NCBI GenBank assembly: GCA_022824265.1
Contig: JAJEAG010000008.1
Coordinates: 1 to 43,576 of the forward strand
Origin: Candidatus Poribacteria bacterium
Lineage (GTDB): Bacteria; Poribacteria; WGA-4E; WGA-3G
Length of the DNA: 43,576 bases
Reading direction: 5' to 3'
Part shown: positions 6,290 to 20,326 of the stretch, one piece after another
How the letters are laid out: the number at the start of each line of letters is the position of its first letter
Position numbering within the stretch: the first letter of the stretch is position 1
The notes under the pieces: generated by a model
The model's database searches: none
Told to the model about the DNA's origin: nothing
The model's input: the letters and a program-made list of their open reading frames with translations, nothing else
Made by a program: the position numbers and the translations under genes

Positions 6290-8167
6290 TTAATTGTCAA
6301 AATCAAGATCCCACAACAGCACGGTGCCATCCGCACTCGCACTCGCTAATGTCTTACCATCAGGACTAAACGCTAAACTATAGACTGTATACCTATGTCC
6401 ATGCAATGTTTTTATATGTGTACCTGTATCCACATTCCATAGCCAAATGGTATTACCAAAAAGCATGCCACATGCTAACGTCTTACCATCAGGACTAAAC
6501 GCAACACTCTCCGCGCCATCCGGATGCCCTTTCAACACACGAATAGTTTCACCGGATTTTGAATTCCACAGGCGCACGGTTTTATCCTCACTCCCACTCG
6601 CGATCATCTTTCCATCAGGACTATAAGCCACAACTTTCACGTAATGCGTATGTCCTTCCAACGTCAGAAGTAAAGTGCCGGTCTGTACATCCCATATACG
6701 TACTTTTTTATCCTCACTTCCACTTGCAAACATAGTTCCATCTGGACTGAACACTACACTATGGACAGCATCCTTATTCACAGAAATCGTGTTGAGATTC
6801 TCTCCTGTCGGCACTTTCCACAAATTGATGTTACCATATTGATTTCCACACGCTAATATTTTCCCATTAGGACTGAGCGCAACATTATGTATCCAATCAC
6901 TTTCTCTAACCAGAGTTGGTTGTGTAGCGTTTGTTGGTATATCCCACAAACATACGGTATCATCATTACTCCCACTTGCCAATGTCTTTCCATCTGTGCT
7001 GAACACGACACTTACAACACTGAACCTATGCGCTTTTATCTCCCTAATCAGTTCAAATGTCTGTGTATCCCACAACTGGATAATAGGATCGTTTTTCCCA
7101 ACTGCCAACATTTTGCCATCCGGACTAAATGCTACGCTATATACCTCCTGCGTGTGATTACCAAACATCCGTATCTGTTTTCCGGTTTGCACATCCCATA
7201 AACGGAAGGAGCCATCCCGACTTGAACTCCAAAATGTCTTACCATCAGCATTAAACACAACATTATATCCCCATGAACGGTGTCCTTCTAAGTCTTGAAG
7301 TTGCGTTCCTGTTGCCACATGCCACATTCGGATTGTTCCATCGCCGTTACAACTTACCAATAACTGTCCATCCGGACTGAATGTAACGCTTAATGCAGTA
7401 GACTTAAATCCTCCCATCTGATGGAGTTCAATACCTGACTGTACATCCCATAGTCGTACGGTTTTGTCGTCACCAGCACTTGCCAGTTTTTTCCCATCGG
7501 CGGAGAACGCAACATCTATAACATATCGTGTATGTCCGGTAAACGTCTGGATCGATTCGCTGGTCTGCACATCCCATATACGTAAGGTCGTATCATCACT
7601 TGAGCTTGCCAGCGTATTACCATCTGGACTGAATTCCACACTTGTAACATCATTCGTATGTCCTGTTAACGTCTGAAGGTGTACACCTGTTTCCACATCC
7701 CACAAACGGATGGTCGTGTCCTCACTCCCACTTGCCAATGTCTTTCCATCAGGATTGAATGCAACACCTCCTGTATTCCCTTCATGTCCTGCCATTGTGT
7801 GAAGTAGTGAGCCGGTCTGAACATCCCACAGACGCACGGATTTATCATTGCTTCCGCTTGCTATCATTGAACTGTCGGGACTGAAAGCCACACAACTAAC
7901 CGAATCGGTATGTTCTGCAAGCATGTGGAGTGCCTTTTCTGTGTTTACGTCGTAGATCCAAATCCCAGTATTACACGCTACAGCTAATAGATTACCATCA
8001 TCGGAAAGTGCGATATTGCCCGTTATCCCACCTTTCCCGATCCGTACTTTTGTGCCTTCAGGTAAGTGCTGTAGATGCCAATCAGTCGCATCTTGTGCAA
8101 TGATGTTTAGAGAAGCGGTGTGTATTGTTAACCAAAATGCTAACGTCAGCAGAAGTGTTTTTTGCAT
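6290..8167 (-). CDS. Exported WD40-repeat protein, 14 repeats (625 aa)
   Basis: A signal-peptide-like N-terminus (MQKTLLLTLAFWL, Ala-rich to about residue 24, IIAQDA) is followed by 14 WD40 repeats filling the whole protein. Each shows the FSPDGK-LASGS core and most a D-x-x-(V/I)-R-L-W-D ending. Fourteen repeats fit two seven-bladed beta-propellers. No enzymatic domain is visible, so a binding or scaffold role outside the cytoplasm is the reasonable inference. The bases before the ATG (AACAACAACCT) contain no Shine-Dalgarno sequence, unlike most genes here. Repeats 1, 10 and 13 are the most divergent. It lies upstream of the dehydrogenase genes on the same strand but with a 100-base gap and a palindrome between. 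Confidence 0.9.
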   Translation of the reverse strand: MQKTLLLTLAFWLTIHTASLNIIAQDATDWHLQHLPEGTKVRIGKGGITGNIALSDDGNLLAVACNTGIWIYDVNTEKALHMLAEHTDSVSCVAFSPDSSMIASGSNDKSVRLWDVQTGSLLHTMAGHEGNTGGVAFNPDGKTLASGSEDTTIRLWDVETGVHLQTLTGHTNDVTSVEFSPDGNTLASSSDDTTLRIWDVQTSESIQTFTGHTRYVIDVAFSADGKKLASAGDDKTVRLWDVQSGIELHQMGGFKSTALSVTFSPDGQLLVSCNGDGTIRMWHVATGTQLQDLEGHRSWGYNVVFNADGKTFWSSSRDGSFRLWDVQTGKQIRMFGNHTQEVYSVAFSPDGKMLAVGKNDPIIQLWDTQTFELIREIKAHRFSVVSVVFSTDGKTLASGSNDDTVCLWDIPTNATQPTLVRESDWIHNVALSPNGKILACGNQYGNINLWKVPTGENLNTISVNKDAVHSVVFSPDGTMFASGSEDKKVRIWDVQTGTLLLTLEGHTHYVKVVAYSPDGKMIASGSEDKTVRLWNSKSGETIRVLKGHPDGAESVAFSPDGKTLACGMLFGNTIWLWNVDTGTHIKTLHGHRYTVYSLAFSPDGKTLASASADGTVLLWDLDFDN

Positions 8168-8211: not shown

Positions 8212-8514
8212 CCATAAACGTCAATTTAAGGAGGAAACGCGTTCGTAGTTGCGCAATTCATTGCCAAATCAACGGTATGAATGCCATTGGCATTCCCGTA
8301 TGGCATTTGTCGCCTCGGACATTATCGTAGGGGCGAGGTTTCCTCGCCCGTATGCTTCACATACAGTCCTGTAGGTCGGAACAAGCACAAAGAGACATTG
8401 ATATACCAAAATCCTTCAGTGTCTTCCGCGTCTTCAGTGCTTTCAGTGATTCAGACAATTAACATTATCACACACTTTCACACAAAGGCATAATCCTTAA
8501 ATTGACGCTTATGG
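8212..8514. mobile_element. MITE-like element A with 20-bp terminal inverted repeats
   Basis: Left end CCATAAACGTCAATTTAAGG (8212-8231) and right end CCTTAAATTGACGCTTATGG (8495-8514) are inverted copies with one mismatch, bounding 303 bases without a gene. Inside, after the left end, come a GCGCAATTCATTGC string, a GGGGCGAGG/CCTCGCCC palindrome (8326-8353), CACATACAGTCC and GTAGGTCGGA, in the same order as in element B (9685-9931). A module at about 8410-8460 (repeated CTTCAG/TTTCAGTG, ending GATTCAGAC) recurs at about 30660-30707. No transposase is present and I see no clear target-site duplication. Confidence 0.65.
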
Positions 8515-16644: not shown

Positions 16645-19248
16645 ATGAAATCATACCTTATCTACACCATTGTCCTCTTTATTGTCTTTTTACCTGTTAT
16701 ACAAGCACTTCCACCTGACCCTGAACTTCATAGGGCAATCGAAACCGCACGAAGTTTCACACGCCTTAAACCGAGATATACCCCTAACGAGATAGTGGAA
16801 TGTGCTACTGACAGCTTTGTCACAATAGCAAAGAATTGGCAGAACCTTCCTTCAACATATCGCAATGAACTGAAACCTATTTTCCTACGTCCCGGACTTC
16901 CCGGTAGTTTCTTCGGGGACATAGAATTATCAGAACAATTTGATACACCGCACTTCAGACTTCATTATACACGCATCGGACCGCATGCCCCACCGCTTGA
17001 GGATTTCCACCCACGTAACGGTGTCCCCGATTATGTTGATCTCTGTGCGGATGCTATGGAACGCTCATATCGCCTTCAAATTGATCTAATGAAATTCAAG
17101 AAACCGTATATAGATTTCTGGGCGGCACAAAACGGTGGCAATCATAAAATAGATGTTTACCTATTCACTTTTCCTGCCCTTGGTATCACAACAGCAGATT
17201 GGTTTGAAGGTCGCGTGCTGTCTACTTCCTTGACGGTAGCACCCTATTTCATGATCAATTCACGCATATACGATTATGTTGGAAAAGCAGAAGGTATCCG
17301 CTATCTTGAGACCACTTGTGCACACGAATTCCTGCACGGTATTCAGTTCGCATACAACGCCTATATGCCAACTTGGTTCATGGAAGCATCAGCAACGTGG
17401 ATAGAAGTAATGACCTACGATGGCGGCGTAATTGACGATGGAGACACACTTCCCGATCCAGACGAAATCAATGAAACTAATTCCTATAACTACTACATAC
17501 ACCAACTACGACGTTGGTTTATGATTCCAGATATATCTCTTGAAAGTCGCATTGGCGACCACGAATACGGTTCCGTAATATGGGCATTATATATGGCGGA
17601 AAGGTTTGGCTACGACATCATAAGGCAGTTCTTTAACAACGCTACTGATGGTAGTTACCGAGAGTTTGGCAACTTCTATGAAGTCTTTATTGATAACGGA
17701 ACAACCCTCGCTGAAGCATTCAAGACATTCACCGTATGGAATTATTTCACACATACTCGCGCCAATACTAGTACAGAAATTCAGGGATATCGAAATGCGG
17801 AACGGTTTCCACCTGTTTCAATTCATCCCAACGATTACCATTCTGCTTACCCTATCCGTACTGATTTCGACTCAGAATCTATGCCAGAGCACTTTGCCTC
17901 GCGCTATTTTGTCTTCCGTCCGTCTGGAATTATGCCAGAATTTGCTATCAAAATAGACGGTGCAGACCTCGCACAAATTGATATGAGTCAACTAACAAAT
18001 GCTGATCGGATAAGCATTGACAGAGAACTCAGAAGGCACACTAATACTGGCTTGCGCGGATGGGCTGCAAAATTCATTGTCAAGAAAAACAATGGCACGA
18101 CAGAGGTAAGAGAAGCATTCACTTATCAAAGGTCACAAGAAGCACAAATGACATTCACAGACTTTGGCGGAGAAATACGCGAGATAATCCTGATCCTCAT
18201 TAACATGCATCCCGATGTGGAACAGGTTATTATTCCCGGTGGCACTTTTGGTGGTTCTGTAAGTATCATGGCAGGTGCACCACCGACAGGTCAACTTTCA
18301 AATGCTCAAGTCTCACAAGGCACCAGAGGACCGATTATCAGATGGTCACTTGACGACCCGACTGGCATTCAGGAAGTTGTAATTGTAAGAAAACGTTATG
18401 AGTTGCTAAGTGAAACGGATATGCCACAACCCTTCCAAAATGCAGATGAAGTTCGCGCCGCTGTTGACAGTAATGGAGACGGTATCGCAGAAGACACTAT
18501 CAATATCGTTGGACGCGTGAGTGTTTCGCAAACCCAGTTTGAAGATACTTCGGTTTTTCAAGATATAGATGTTGCATTTACGGAACCGAATGATGTCCAT
18601 TACTATTACGCAGTTGTTCCAGTTGACGCTTTAGGTATTATGGGAAAACCAAATATTGTGCCAGAGAGCATCAAACCCAATGTTGGTATTACAAACGGTG
18701 CCCCCGCATTCTTTATTAACACGCAGCCACATCGTACTGGAGAGTGGCATGTTGAAGTCCAGAGTACACATCCACTGCAGAGTGCCCCACAACTAACAGT
18801 AGAAAGTCCAAACAGAGATAATTATACGATCTTTCTGACGCAAGAATCTGCAACAAAATGGAAAGGCACACTCCGCACAAACGGATTTCCACAGACAGGT
18901 ATCTATCTCTATAAGATTACTGGACAAACACCTTCTGGAATCATCGGAAATAAAATATGGCAAGGACGTATCTTCAACTATGTTGCAAATAACATCAATA
19001 AAACCGTTTTAGTATCTCCTAATCCCATTCGGGCAGGACAAGGCAACCAACATCTAACCTTCTACCCAAACGGCTTAACCGTTGAAATTTACGATGTTAC
19101 GGGAAATCGTATCAAAGTCATTGAAAATGCATCCAATTGGGATTGCACAAATCAAAATGGAGAAAAGGTCTGCACAGGACTATACTTTTTCCGTGCTACC
19201 GACGGTAACGGTTACCAAAGTACCGGCAAGTTTTCTGTGGTGAAATAA
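16645..19248 (+). CDS. Large secreted metalloprotease (MXAN_6640-like) with C-terminal sorting-type domain (867 aa)
   Basis: After a signal peptide (to about residue 22) the protein has a zinc-protease core with HEFLH at 227-231 and Glu247 in WFMEASATWIE as the likely third ligand, the gluzincin-type arrangement of the MXAN_6640 putative metalloprotease family. The central part (about 530-760) is beta-rich with fibronectin-like segments. The last 80 residues (VSPNPIRAG, VEIYDVTGNRI, GLYFFRATDGNG, GKFSVVK) match the FlgD-Ig/type-IX-secretion C-terminal fold, suggesting surface attachment or secretion through that type of domain. It has its own promoter. Its TAA now lies 241 bases before the next gene, but a flanking duplication shows the two were originally joined by TAATG. 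Confidence 0.85.
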   Translation: MKSYLIYTIVLFIVFLPVIQALPPDPELHRAIETARSFTRLKPRYTPNEIVECATDSFVTIAKNWQNLPSTYRNELKPIFLRPGLPGSFFGDIELSEQFDTPHFRLHYTRIGPHAPPLEDFHPRNGVPDYVDLCADAMERSYRLQIDLMKFKKPYIDFWAAQNGGNHKIDVYLFTFPALGITTADWFEGRVLSTSLTVAPYFMINSRIYDYVGKAEGIRYLETTCAHEFLHGIQFAYNAYMPTWFMEASATWIEVMTYDGGVIDDGDTLPDPDEINETNSYNYYIHQLRRWFMIPDISLESRIGDHEYGSVIWALYMAERFGYDIIRQFFNNATDGSYREFGNFYEVFIDNGTTLAEAFKTFTVWNYFTHTRANTSTEIQGYRNAERFPPVSIHPNDYHSAYPIRTDFDSESMPEHFASRYFVFRPSGIMPEFAIKIDGADLAQIDMSQLTNADRISIDRELRRHTNTGLRGWAAKFIVKKNNGTTEVREAFTYQRSQEAQMTFTDFGGEIREIILILINMHPDVEQVIIPGGTFGGSVSIMAGAPPTGQLSNAQVSQGTRGPIIRWSLDDPTGIQEVVIVRKRYELLSETDMPQPFQNADEVRAAVDSNGDGIAEDTINIVGRVSVSQTQFEDTSVFQDIDVAFTEPNDVHYYYAVVPVDALGIMGKPNIVPESIKPNVGITNGAPAFFINTQPHRTGEWHVEVQSTHPLQSAPQLTVESPNRDNYTIFLTQESATKWKGTLRTNGFPQTGIYLYKITGQTPSGIIGNKIWQGRIFNYVANNINKTVLVSPNPIRAGQGNQHLTFYPNGLTVEIYDVTGNRIKVIENASNWDCTNQNGEKVCTGLYFFRATDGNGYQSTGKFSVVK

Positions 19249-19497
19249 TGAAGCAACATAAGCGTCAATTTAGTGTCTATCATTAGTTTGTCTGATACAA
19301 CTTTCTGTCATCTTGAATTTGCTATTATACGACCAACGCTTTCTATACACTTATCTCCTCTACGAGGTATGGAAAATCGGAATTTAGCACCAGCGGTGCG
19401 GAAGGTGTATAGACCTGATATAATAATTACCCAAAGCCCCAGCGGGGCGAAAGGTGTATCCTTAAATTGACACTTATGGTGGTGAAATAATGAAGCA
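19238..19497. mobile_element. MITE-like element C (19256-19479) between 18-bp direct repeats
   Basis: The ends CATAAGCGTCAATTTAG (from 19257) and CCTTAAATTGACACTTATGG (19460-19479) match the inverted termini of elements A and B. The interior contains two palindromic modules, CACCAGCGGTGCG and CCCCAGCGGGGCG, each followed by GAAAGGTGTAT or GGAAGGTGTAT. Immediately outside, TGGTGAAATAATGAAGCA occurs at both 19238-19255 and 19480-19497. The left copy is the end of the protease gene, the right copy the start of the lipoprotein gene. This is the expected footprint of insertion with an unusually long target duplication. Confidence 0.7.
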
Positions 19498-20326
19498 CAA
19501 ACGGTTTTCGCTATCTCGTTCTCTCATGCTTGTATTAGTATTGCTCCTTATCGCCTGTAGTGATGAAGGACTTATTGATCCACATGGTGAAACAAATCTG
19601 ATACCTCCAGATACCTCAGGGACTCTACAGGCAATTGACTTTCCTACAGATACAGGATCGGCATGGACATATATCAACCTTGACACGGAGAAGGAACATA
19701 CGGTACGCATTGGTGGAACTCGTGACATAAGCGGAACAACGCATCGCCAAATGACTGTCAGCACTATCACCCCTGTTGAACCCGACGAACCTAATCTTAT
19801 AGCGGTTGACCATCTTGTAGCAAATGCCTACTATTTCCGTATAGACACCGACTTTTTTAGCGGATTCCCATTTCCAATTTTGGCAACCTACATCAACAAA
19901 ACACCACAAGCATTAGTAGAATCAGCGTTTGACATTTTCCTACCGATAAATAATCCGGTATTTCATCAGAAACACTTTCCACCGCGTCGTCTATGGGATT
20001 TTCCGTTGGAAGTTGGAAAAGAATGGGTTGTGTTTGAAAAAAATATAGGGATACCTGTTTCCGCGTCGCGCTTCGTTGCAGAGAAAAATGTCGTAGTTAC
20101 CGTTCCTGCAGGAACTTACAGTACCTATGTCGTTTACGAAGAGGTTGTATATGGAGACAGCGCAAACCCATCAATCCGTCTAATTAGTCCTCCTGCAATA
20201 TACTGGGTTGCGCCTTCAGTAGGGATTGTTCAGTATAGATATAGCCAATACCGTGCTACCGATACATTCAACACACAAACCTATGTGCTAAAAAGTGTTC
20301 ACCTTCCCGGACCACATACAGATTAG
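19490..20326 (+). CDS. Lipoprotein of unknown function (278 aa)
   Basis: Signal peptide with a clear lipobox (LLLIAC, Cys about residue 23) followed by an Asp/Gly/Pro-rich linker and a beta-rich body with W-x-Y and PAGTYSTYVVYEEV segments; the end is rich in aromatic strand-like stretches (YWVAPSVGIVQYRY). I do not recognise a named family; the PAGTYSTYVV-WVAPSVGIVQYRY pattern is reminiscent of periplasmic lipoproteins that follow metalloproteases. The start codon lies inside the right copy of the 18-bp duplication, so no Shine-Dalgarno remains closer than GGTGG (about 6 bases upstream). 15 bases ahead of the FAD gene, so probably co-transcribed. Confidence 0.8.
   Translation: MKHKRFSLSRSLMLVLVLLLIACSDEGLIDPHGETNLIPPDTSGTLQAIDFPTDTGSAWTYINLDTEKEHTVRIGGTRDISGTTHRQMTVSTITPVEPDEPNLIAVDHLVANAYYFRIDTDFFSGFPFPILATYINKTPQALVESAFDIFLPINNPVFHQKHFPPRRLWDFPLEVGKEWVVFEKNIGIPVSASRFVAEKNVVVTVPAGTYSTYVVYEEVVYGDSANPSIRLISPPAIYWVAPSVGIVQYRYSQYRATDTFNTQTYVLKSVHLPGPHTD

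Follow-up and report, generated by a model that had tools for sequence, protein, structure and literature searches.

Introduction

MIC231 elements of the Bacillus cereus group are non-autonomous cassettes with IS231 ends, and the described insertion sequences (ISs) that enter REP/BIME palindromes belong to other IS families. The length of the target duplication (TSD) is a readout of strand-transfer geometry, and it is treated as near-constant within a transposase family, with that of IS4 being about one helix turn. The known IS4 subgroups have TSDs of 7–13 bp, roughly one helix turn (PMC2266710). Those of IS231, whose ends follow CAT-------AA--TAA---, are 10–12 bp long (Table 1 of PMC2266710), and IS1549 and IS1634 have direct repeats of 8–514 bp (PMC2266710). 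In the IS1202 family, with TGT...ACA ends and a TnsB-like transposase, TSDs of 16–28 bp have been reported (PMC10132070).

Here we analysed a 43,576-bp stretch of DNA (the window) from a sponge-associated bacterium, Candidatus Poribacteria, in which an overlapping gene pair has been split by a short element, with neither frame broken.

Results

The split gene pair and the element

The upstream gene (16645..19248, + strand) encodes an 867-aa protein that profile matches identified as an MXAN_6640-like putative metalloprotease with a T9SS type A sorting tail. Its match to NF045524 (E = 1.8e-37, 129.6 bits) was under the curated cut-off of 140, and that of the tail to TIGR04183 (E = 1.7e-8) was above cut-off. 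The downstream gene (19490..20326, + strand), which adjoins the protease gene across the genus, encodes a 278-aa putative lipoprotein for which no match was found among the family models searched.

The 18-bp sequence TGGTGAAATAATGAAGCA was found at 19238–19255 and at 19480–19497, with no third occurrence in the window. Inclusion of the preceding G (19237, 19479) extends the exact repeat to 19 bp. When the element ends are read as CATA...TATG, the duplication becomes 20 bp with one mismatch (GTGGTGAAATAATGAAGCAA, 19237–19256; GTGGTGAAATAATGAAGCAC, 19479–19498), that is, GTGGTGAAATAATGAAGCA followed by A in the left copy and by C in the right copy. Judged by the window copy itself, duplications of 18, 19 and 20 bp are indistinguishable. 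The left copy contains the TAA stop codon (19246–19248) of the 867-aa ORF, and the right copy the ATG start codon (19490–19492) of the 278-aa ORF. Because a duplication of this length spans the entire junction, both frames remained intact, and the preliminary description was right to call both complete. Deletion of the element and one copy in silico gave the junction ...GTGGTGAAATAATGAAGCACAAACGG. A 12-codon mini-ORF (19248..19286, + strand), read from the sequence as a product of the insertion, starts in the left copy and stops within the element.

The region between the 18-bp copies holds a 220-bp ATA...TAT segment whose ends are inverted (ATAAGCGTCAATTTA at 19258–19272, + strand; ATAAGTGTCAATTTA at 19463–19477, − strand), and the terminal inverted repeats (TIRs) can be written as (C)CATAAGYGTCAATTTA. 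The MITE body (+ strand), delimited by this TIR pair and by its genome-wide family, is ∼222 bp, at 19257..19478 if the ends are CATA...TATG or 19256–19479 if they are MC/GG. TIR pairing and comparison of the subtermini assigned an 'AGTG' type subterminus to the left TIR (CATAAGCGTCAATTTA, 19257..19272, + strand) and an 'AAGG' type to the right TIR (CATAAGTGTCAATTTA, 19463..19478, − strand). ORFs of at least 80 aa were absent from the interior. Short palindromic modules, GCACCAGCGGTGC and GCCCCAGCGGGGC followed by GAAAGGTGT, were observed in the interior (19256–19479); these are also found at other places in the genome, in either orientation. A structured RNA was considered and rejected: there was no Rfam match at E ≤ 1, and the strong fold (z −3.8) is expected from a TIR element with inner palindromes.

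The window contains another member of this TIR family at 8213..8513 (+ strand), near a DHDPS-family gene and with no target duplication left. Elsewhere in the window (6299–7893), a twelve-fold 126-bp tandem repeat lies within a 625-aa ORF, whose product is a putative WD40-type propeller protein, judged by the repeat period.

Empty sites in related genomes

The lipoprotein gene was sought by protein search in 17 other genomes of the genus and was present in 16; G002, the remaining one, had nothing closer than a remote paralogue. The 16 relatives with the gene pair all lack the element: the end of the protease gene adjoins the lipoprotein gene, the junction occurs once, and none shows the two copies that would have refuted the preliminary description. 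The preliminary description had proposed a MITE-like element inserted between the two genes with duplication of their junction, and its coordinates and rejoined junction proved correct. It had also placed a one-base TAATG stop/start overlap at the junction before insertion. Such an overlap (TRATG: TAATG or TGATG) was found in 13 of the 16 element-free relatives, as GAAATAATG or as GAAATGATG and close variants, and was missing from three (G003, G005 and G013). The reading of a translationally coupled pair, which we infer from the codon overlap, therefore holds.

The 22-bp repeat of a second copy of the element (L067) is GGTTATCCATTCAAATTAAACC and no REP sequence; G011 carries the element at this locus. 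The corresponding empty site was found in G014 as a single copy (GGATTACCCATTCAAATTAAACC), with the alignment continuous across both flanks.

In many relatives (L122–L124, L126, L128, L129, L131, L136 and L137), the start of the lipoprotein gene runs into CAATCAGC / TTATCAGT repeats just after TAATG or TGATG, apparently a repetitive N-terminal extension of the lipoprotein.

The element family and the length of its duplication

The element DNA gave 63 BLAST matches in its own genome. The TIR motif ATARGYGTCAATTTA, with at most one mismatch, was found 133 times there, compared with 2 times for the reversed control. Because of this excess, and because the junction is single-copy in 16/16 relatives, the repeat is not due to chance.

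In all, 57 convergent TIR pairs were collected; they came from the own genome, from G017 (a complete genome) and from transposase-bearing loci. Direct flank repeats abutting the ATARG ends were found in 29 pairs, with lengths measured from ATARG of 22 bp (19 cases), 21 bp (6), 23 bp (2) and 19 bp (2); the other 28 pairs, roughly half, had no direct repeat. When each left flank was scored against the right flanks of all other pairs, the 99% score was 14.5, and 26 of the 57 true pairs reached or exceeded it. It had been suggested that flanks of other copies be compared for duplications of the same length. The same unusual size was recovered (22 bp from ATARG, or 20 bp if the ends are CATA), but about half of the copies were without repeats or in rearranged surroundings.

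The spacing of back-to-back elements, which share a single target copy, provided a measure independent of repeat detection and agreed with the repeat lengths. Their TIRs were 22 bp apart in G017 (611269/611292, 92185/92208, 974157/974180 and 3037776/3037799), in the own genome (C46 1897/1920) and at L163; one case was 21 bp. Mismatches between target copies crowded at the outermost positions (6/19 at position 1; 2–3 at positions 2, 21 and 22; 0–2 inside); the outermost C and G are therefore probably part of the element. If the ends are thus CATA...TATG, the IS231-type form, the modal TSD would be 20 bp; its length shifts by 2–4 bp with the placement of the element end.

Dyad symmetry of the targets

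In 10 dissimilar 22-bp targets, positions 1–4 pair with positions 22–19 in 9, 7, 9 and 8 cases, respectively. On average 5.7 of 11 positions were paired, compared with 2.8 after shuffling and a maximum of 4.2 in 2000 shuffles. A REP-like hairpin, GGT(T/G/A)CGGTT-TCCT-AACCG(A/C/T)ACC, accounts for many of the targets. The window target, TGTGGTGAAATAATGAAGCACA, has little beyond the outer dyad TGTG/CACA.

At some loci the flank copies were inverted instead of direct (19/19 positions at L203, 18/18 at L212, 22/24 at both L159 and L161, and 20/22 at L076), and at L191 only the loop GA/TC was turned. Inverted target copies recur in three phyla, and a simple model gives no account of them; they may reflect turning of a hairpin loop in gap repair, or later template switching. 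Between the target hairpin and the TIR, a 27–29-bp palindrome, AATGCAGAATGCCAAACGCGCATTCTGCC, was observed to the left of the TIR at L072 and L078 and to the right at L066, L099 and L113. It looks as if it were a second, tiny nested element.

An autonomous IS with the same ends

In the complete genome G017 (L141, 793–2251), a TIR pair identical to the TIRs of the family surrounds 1459 bp (∼1.46 kb) with a 439-aa ORF, and the 22-bp repeat GGTGCGGTTAGAAAGCTACACC is present on both sides. The 439-aa protein matched the IS4-family model NF033592 (2e-62, 211 bits, cut-off 115), and its only Pfam match was DDE_Tnp_1, with no rve or TnsB-type match. D119, D191 and E324 are invariant in A1 and A2, and their spacings of 72 and 133 fit the IS4 pattern D(60–110)D(100–150)E in a single ORF. 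As to the Y-(2)-R-(3)-E-(6)-K signature of IS4, R320, E324 and K331 are invariant, and position 317 is not Y. A PDB sequence search with the transposase gave no match; the best PDB fold match of its AlphaFold model (pLDDT 89, pTM 0.89) was Tn5 transposase (E = 2.5e-9). Another TIR pair 1.6 kb apart (L142) was rejected as a second autonomous IS, with broken transposase-like ORFs, no intact ORF and no matching repeat.

Matches to the transposase were found in 10 of 18 genomes of the genus, several of them intact or nearly so. None was found in the own MAG at E ≤ 1e-3, and the trans-acting enzyme of the window copy was therefore deduced from relatives. Of 47 MITEs, 39 resemble the L141 IS in having an AG-type subterminus at one end and an AA-type subterminus at the other; the match between MITEs and IS is limited to the TIRs and subtermini, and the interiors differ. 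Judged by the shared ends and the shared duplication size, the L141 enzyme or a close relative presumably moved the window copy. The element is short, non-coding, TIR-bounded and multicopy, with a TSD for which an empty site exists and with ends common to an autonomous element.

Duplication lengths across the transposase family

A transposase scan of named genomes returned mainly Candidatus Poribacteria, then Methylobacter luteus, and Bacteroidota and others at 21–32% identity. By the CATA rule, the TSDs of six Poribacteria ISs are 17–20 bp. The M. luteus IS sits in a 20-bp REP palindrome; many other REP copies in that genome have this palindrome only once, and the TSD of the IS was therefore read as 20 bp. 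The short-TSD side of the comparison consists of four Bacteroidota-type elements (L193, L205, L207 and L199) with CATAG-type ends and TSDs of 9, 9, 9 and 11 bp. Their targets are also hairpins or dyads, e.g. GGTTC-GTGAGACAC-GAACC at L193. In the tree, the long-TSD Poribacteria and Methylobacter elements form one clade (99/97) and the short-TSD elements its sister clade (98/86).

Discussion

Origin of the duplicated junction

The segment is very probably a non-autonomous MITE. A DDE transposase like those of the IS4 family would have acted in trans on its CATARGYGTCAATTTA ends and moved it by cut-and-paste. The element family, the autonomous IS with the same ends and duplication size, the empty sites and the dyad-symmetric targets were all observed; the geometry of strand transfer is deduced. 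The two 3' ends of the transposon would join the two target strands ∼20 bp apart, about two helix turns. Joining would be symmetric about the dyad axis of a GGT-n16-ACC site, for which the window has a weak dyad, TGTG...CACA, spanning the junction of the two genes. Gap repair would then leave a copy of the ∼20 bp at both ends of the element. With the junction GAAATAATGAAGCA falling within this duplicated stretch, each gene would have kept its own stop or start; the insertion would have cost the overlap and left the mini-ORF after the protease stop.

The long duplication had been taken to point to an uncommon transposition mechanism. This view has to be narrowed to the long stagger and the hairpin-like target, since the enzyme itself is likely to be an IS4-family (Tn5-fold) DDE transposase of ordinary appearance. 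With TSDs of ∼20 and 9–11 bp in the two clades, we read the chemistry and the kind of target as shared and the stagger as about one helix turn longer; our proposal is IS4-type cut-and-paste with a stagger lengthened to that extent. In its broader form, we lean somewhat towards the view that the Poribacteria/Methylobacter clade of IS4/Tn5-fold enzymes joins its ends ∼20 bp apart, centred on hairpin or dyad targets, while a sister clade with like ends and targets has a 9–11-bp stagger. In that case a shift of about one helical turn in the stagger would have taken place inside a single family, and repair of gaps that form hairpins would, as a side effect, often invert one of the two target copies. 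If true, two sister clades that have matching ends and dyad targets in common and differ in stagger (∼9–11 against ∼20 bp) would offer a natural experiment on what sets the spacing of the active sites of a DDE transpososome on target DNA. The duplication also offers a clean annotation criterion for a large, apparently undescribed family of Poribacteria MITEs.

Alternative explanations

A TSD of this length is known from ISTde1-like ISs, and an IS1202-family (TnsB-like) MITE would fit the 16–28 bp of that family (PMC10132070). The ends of that family are TGT...ACA (PMC10132070), against CATA...TATG here, and the partner IS encodes a DDE_Tnp_1/IS4-family protein with a Tn5 fold and without rve or TnsB-type matches; this origin is extremely improbable and was rejected on ends and transposase. 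A long, variable duplication of the IS1634/IS1549 kind is scarcely credible either. Both of those ISs are near IS4 and their direct repeats range widely (8–514 bp, PMC2266710), whereas the length here is narrow, 19–23 bp from ATARG and exactly 22 bp in 19/29, and the IS1634 model scored 40.9 against a cut-off of 100, compared with 211 against 115 for the IS4 model.

The flanking repeats might instead be REP-like hairpins that pre-existed or travelled with the element, so that the element merely lies between two of them. The 22-bp REP-like hairpin GGTNCGGTTTCCTAACCGNACC does occur ∼104 times in the own genome (e.g. G000:C8:24348-24369), with 0 control matches, and 9 of 30 palindromes inspected had a TIR exactly abutting. 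The other 21 were element-free, however, and the targets of the window, L067, L152 and L153 are not REP copies. Since the window and L067 sites are single-copy in element-free relatives and IS-free REP sites of Methylobacter hold a single palindrome, we regard this explanation, which the two empty sites contradict, as very improbable. A cruciform cut at the base of the hairpin, by which the TSD would have the length of the hairpin and not of a fixed, protein-set stagger, is matched by some observations: TSDs of 17–21 bp vary with dyad length (19-bp GGGTTTCGTTCCTCAACCC, 21-bp GGTGCGGTTGGAAACCGCACC and 22-bp GGTGCGGTTTCCTAACCGCACC), and flipped target copies occur. The window target TGTG...CACA and that of L153 could hardly extrude a cruciform, yet they show the same length, and the short-TSD relatives are cut inside the hairpin arms (as at L193), not at the base. 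We therefore consider a cruciform cut unlikely.

Comparison with known systems

The MITE is assigned to an IS4-like group of Poribacteria ISs that is apparently undescribed and has an unusual and narrow TSD of ∼20 bp at dyad targets. A literature search of freely accessible papers returned no Poribacteria MITEs and no IS4-family elements with a hairpin target and such a TSD length. With the ISs that insert into REP/BIME palindromes, the group shares the preference for repeated extragenic palindromes. The ISTde1/IS1202 group of the IS1202 family resembles it in its long TSD (16–28 bp) but differs in its TGT ends and TnsB-like transposase, and no target rule is reported for it (PMC10132070).

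The Bacteroidota IS4-family relatives have ends of the form CATAGCCGTCA- and close variants, transposases 21–27% identical to the query and hairpin targets such as GGTTCGTGAGACACGAACC; in contrast, their TSDs are 9–11 bp, about one helix turn shorter, and they form a separate clade. The IS4-family range of 7–13 bp is exceeded both in Poribacteria (17–20 bp) and in Methylobacter (20 bp), and a TSD of ∼20 bp is roughly double that range. The likeness to the IS231 subgroup lies in the ends, as those of Poribacteria (CATAAGCGTCAATTTAAG; CATAAGCGTCAATTTAAGG) fit CAT-------AA--TAA---, and in a single-ORF DDE transposase with cut-and-paste transposition. Compared with the MIC231 cassette, the body of the window MITE is too small to code. 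The TSD here is ∼20 bp instead of 10–12 bp, the Y of YREK is lacking, and the host belongs to Poribacteria and not to the Bacillus cereus group; because of the TSD and the Y residue, the elements described here were not placed in the IS231 subgroup.
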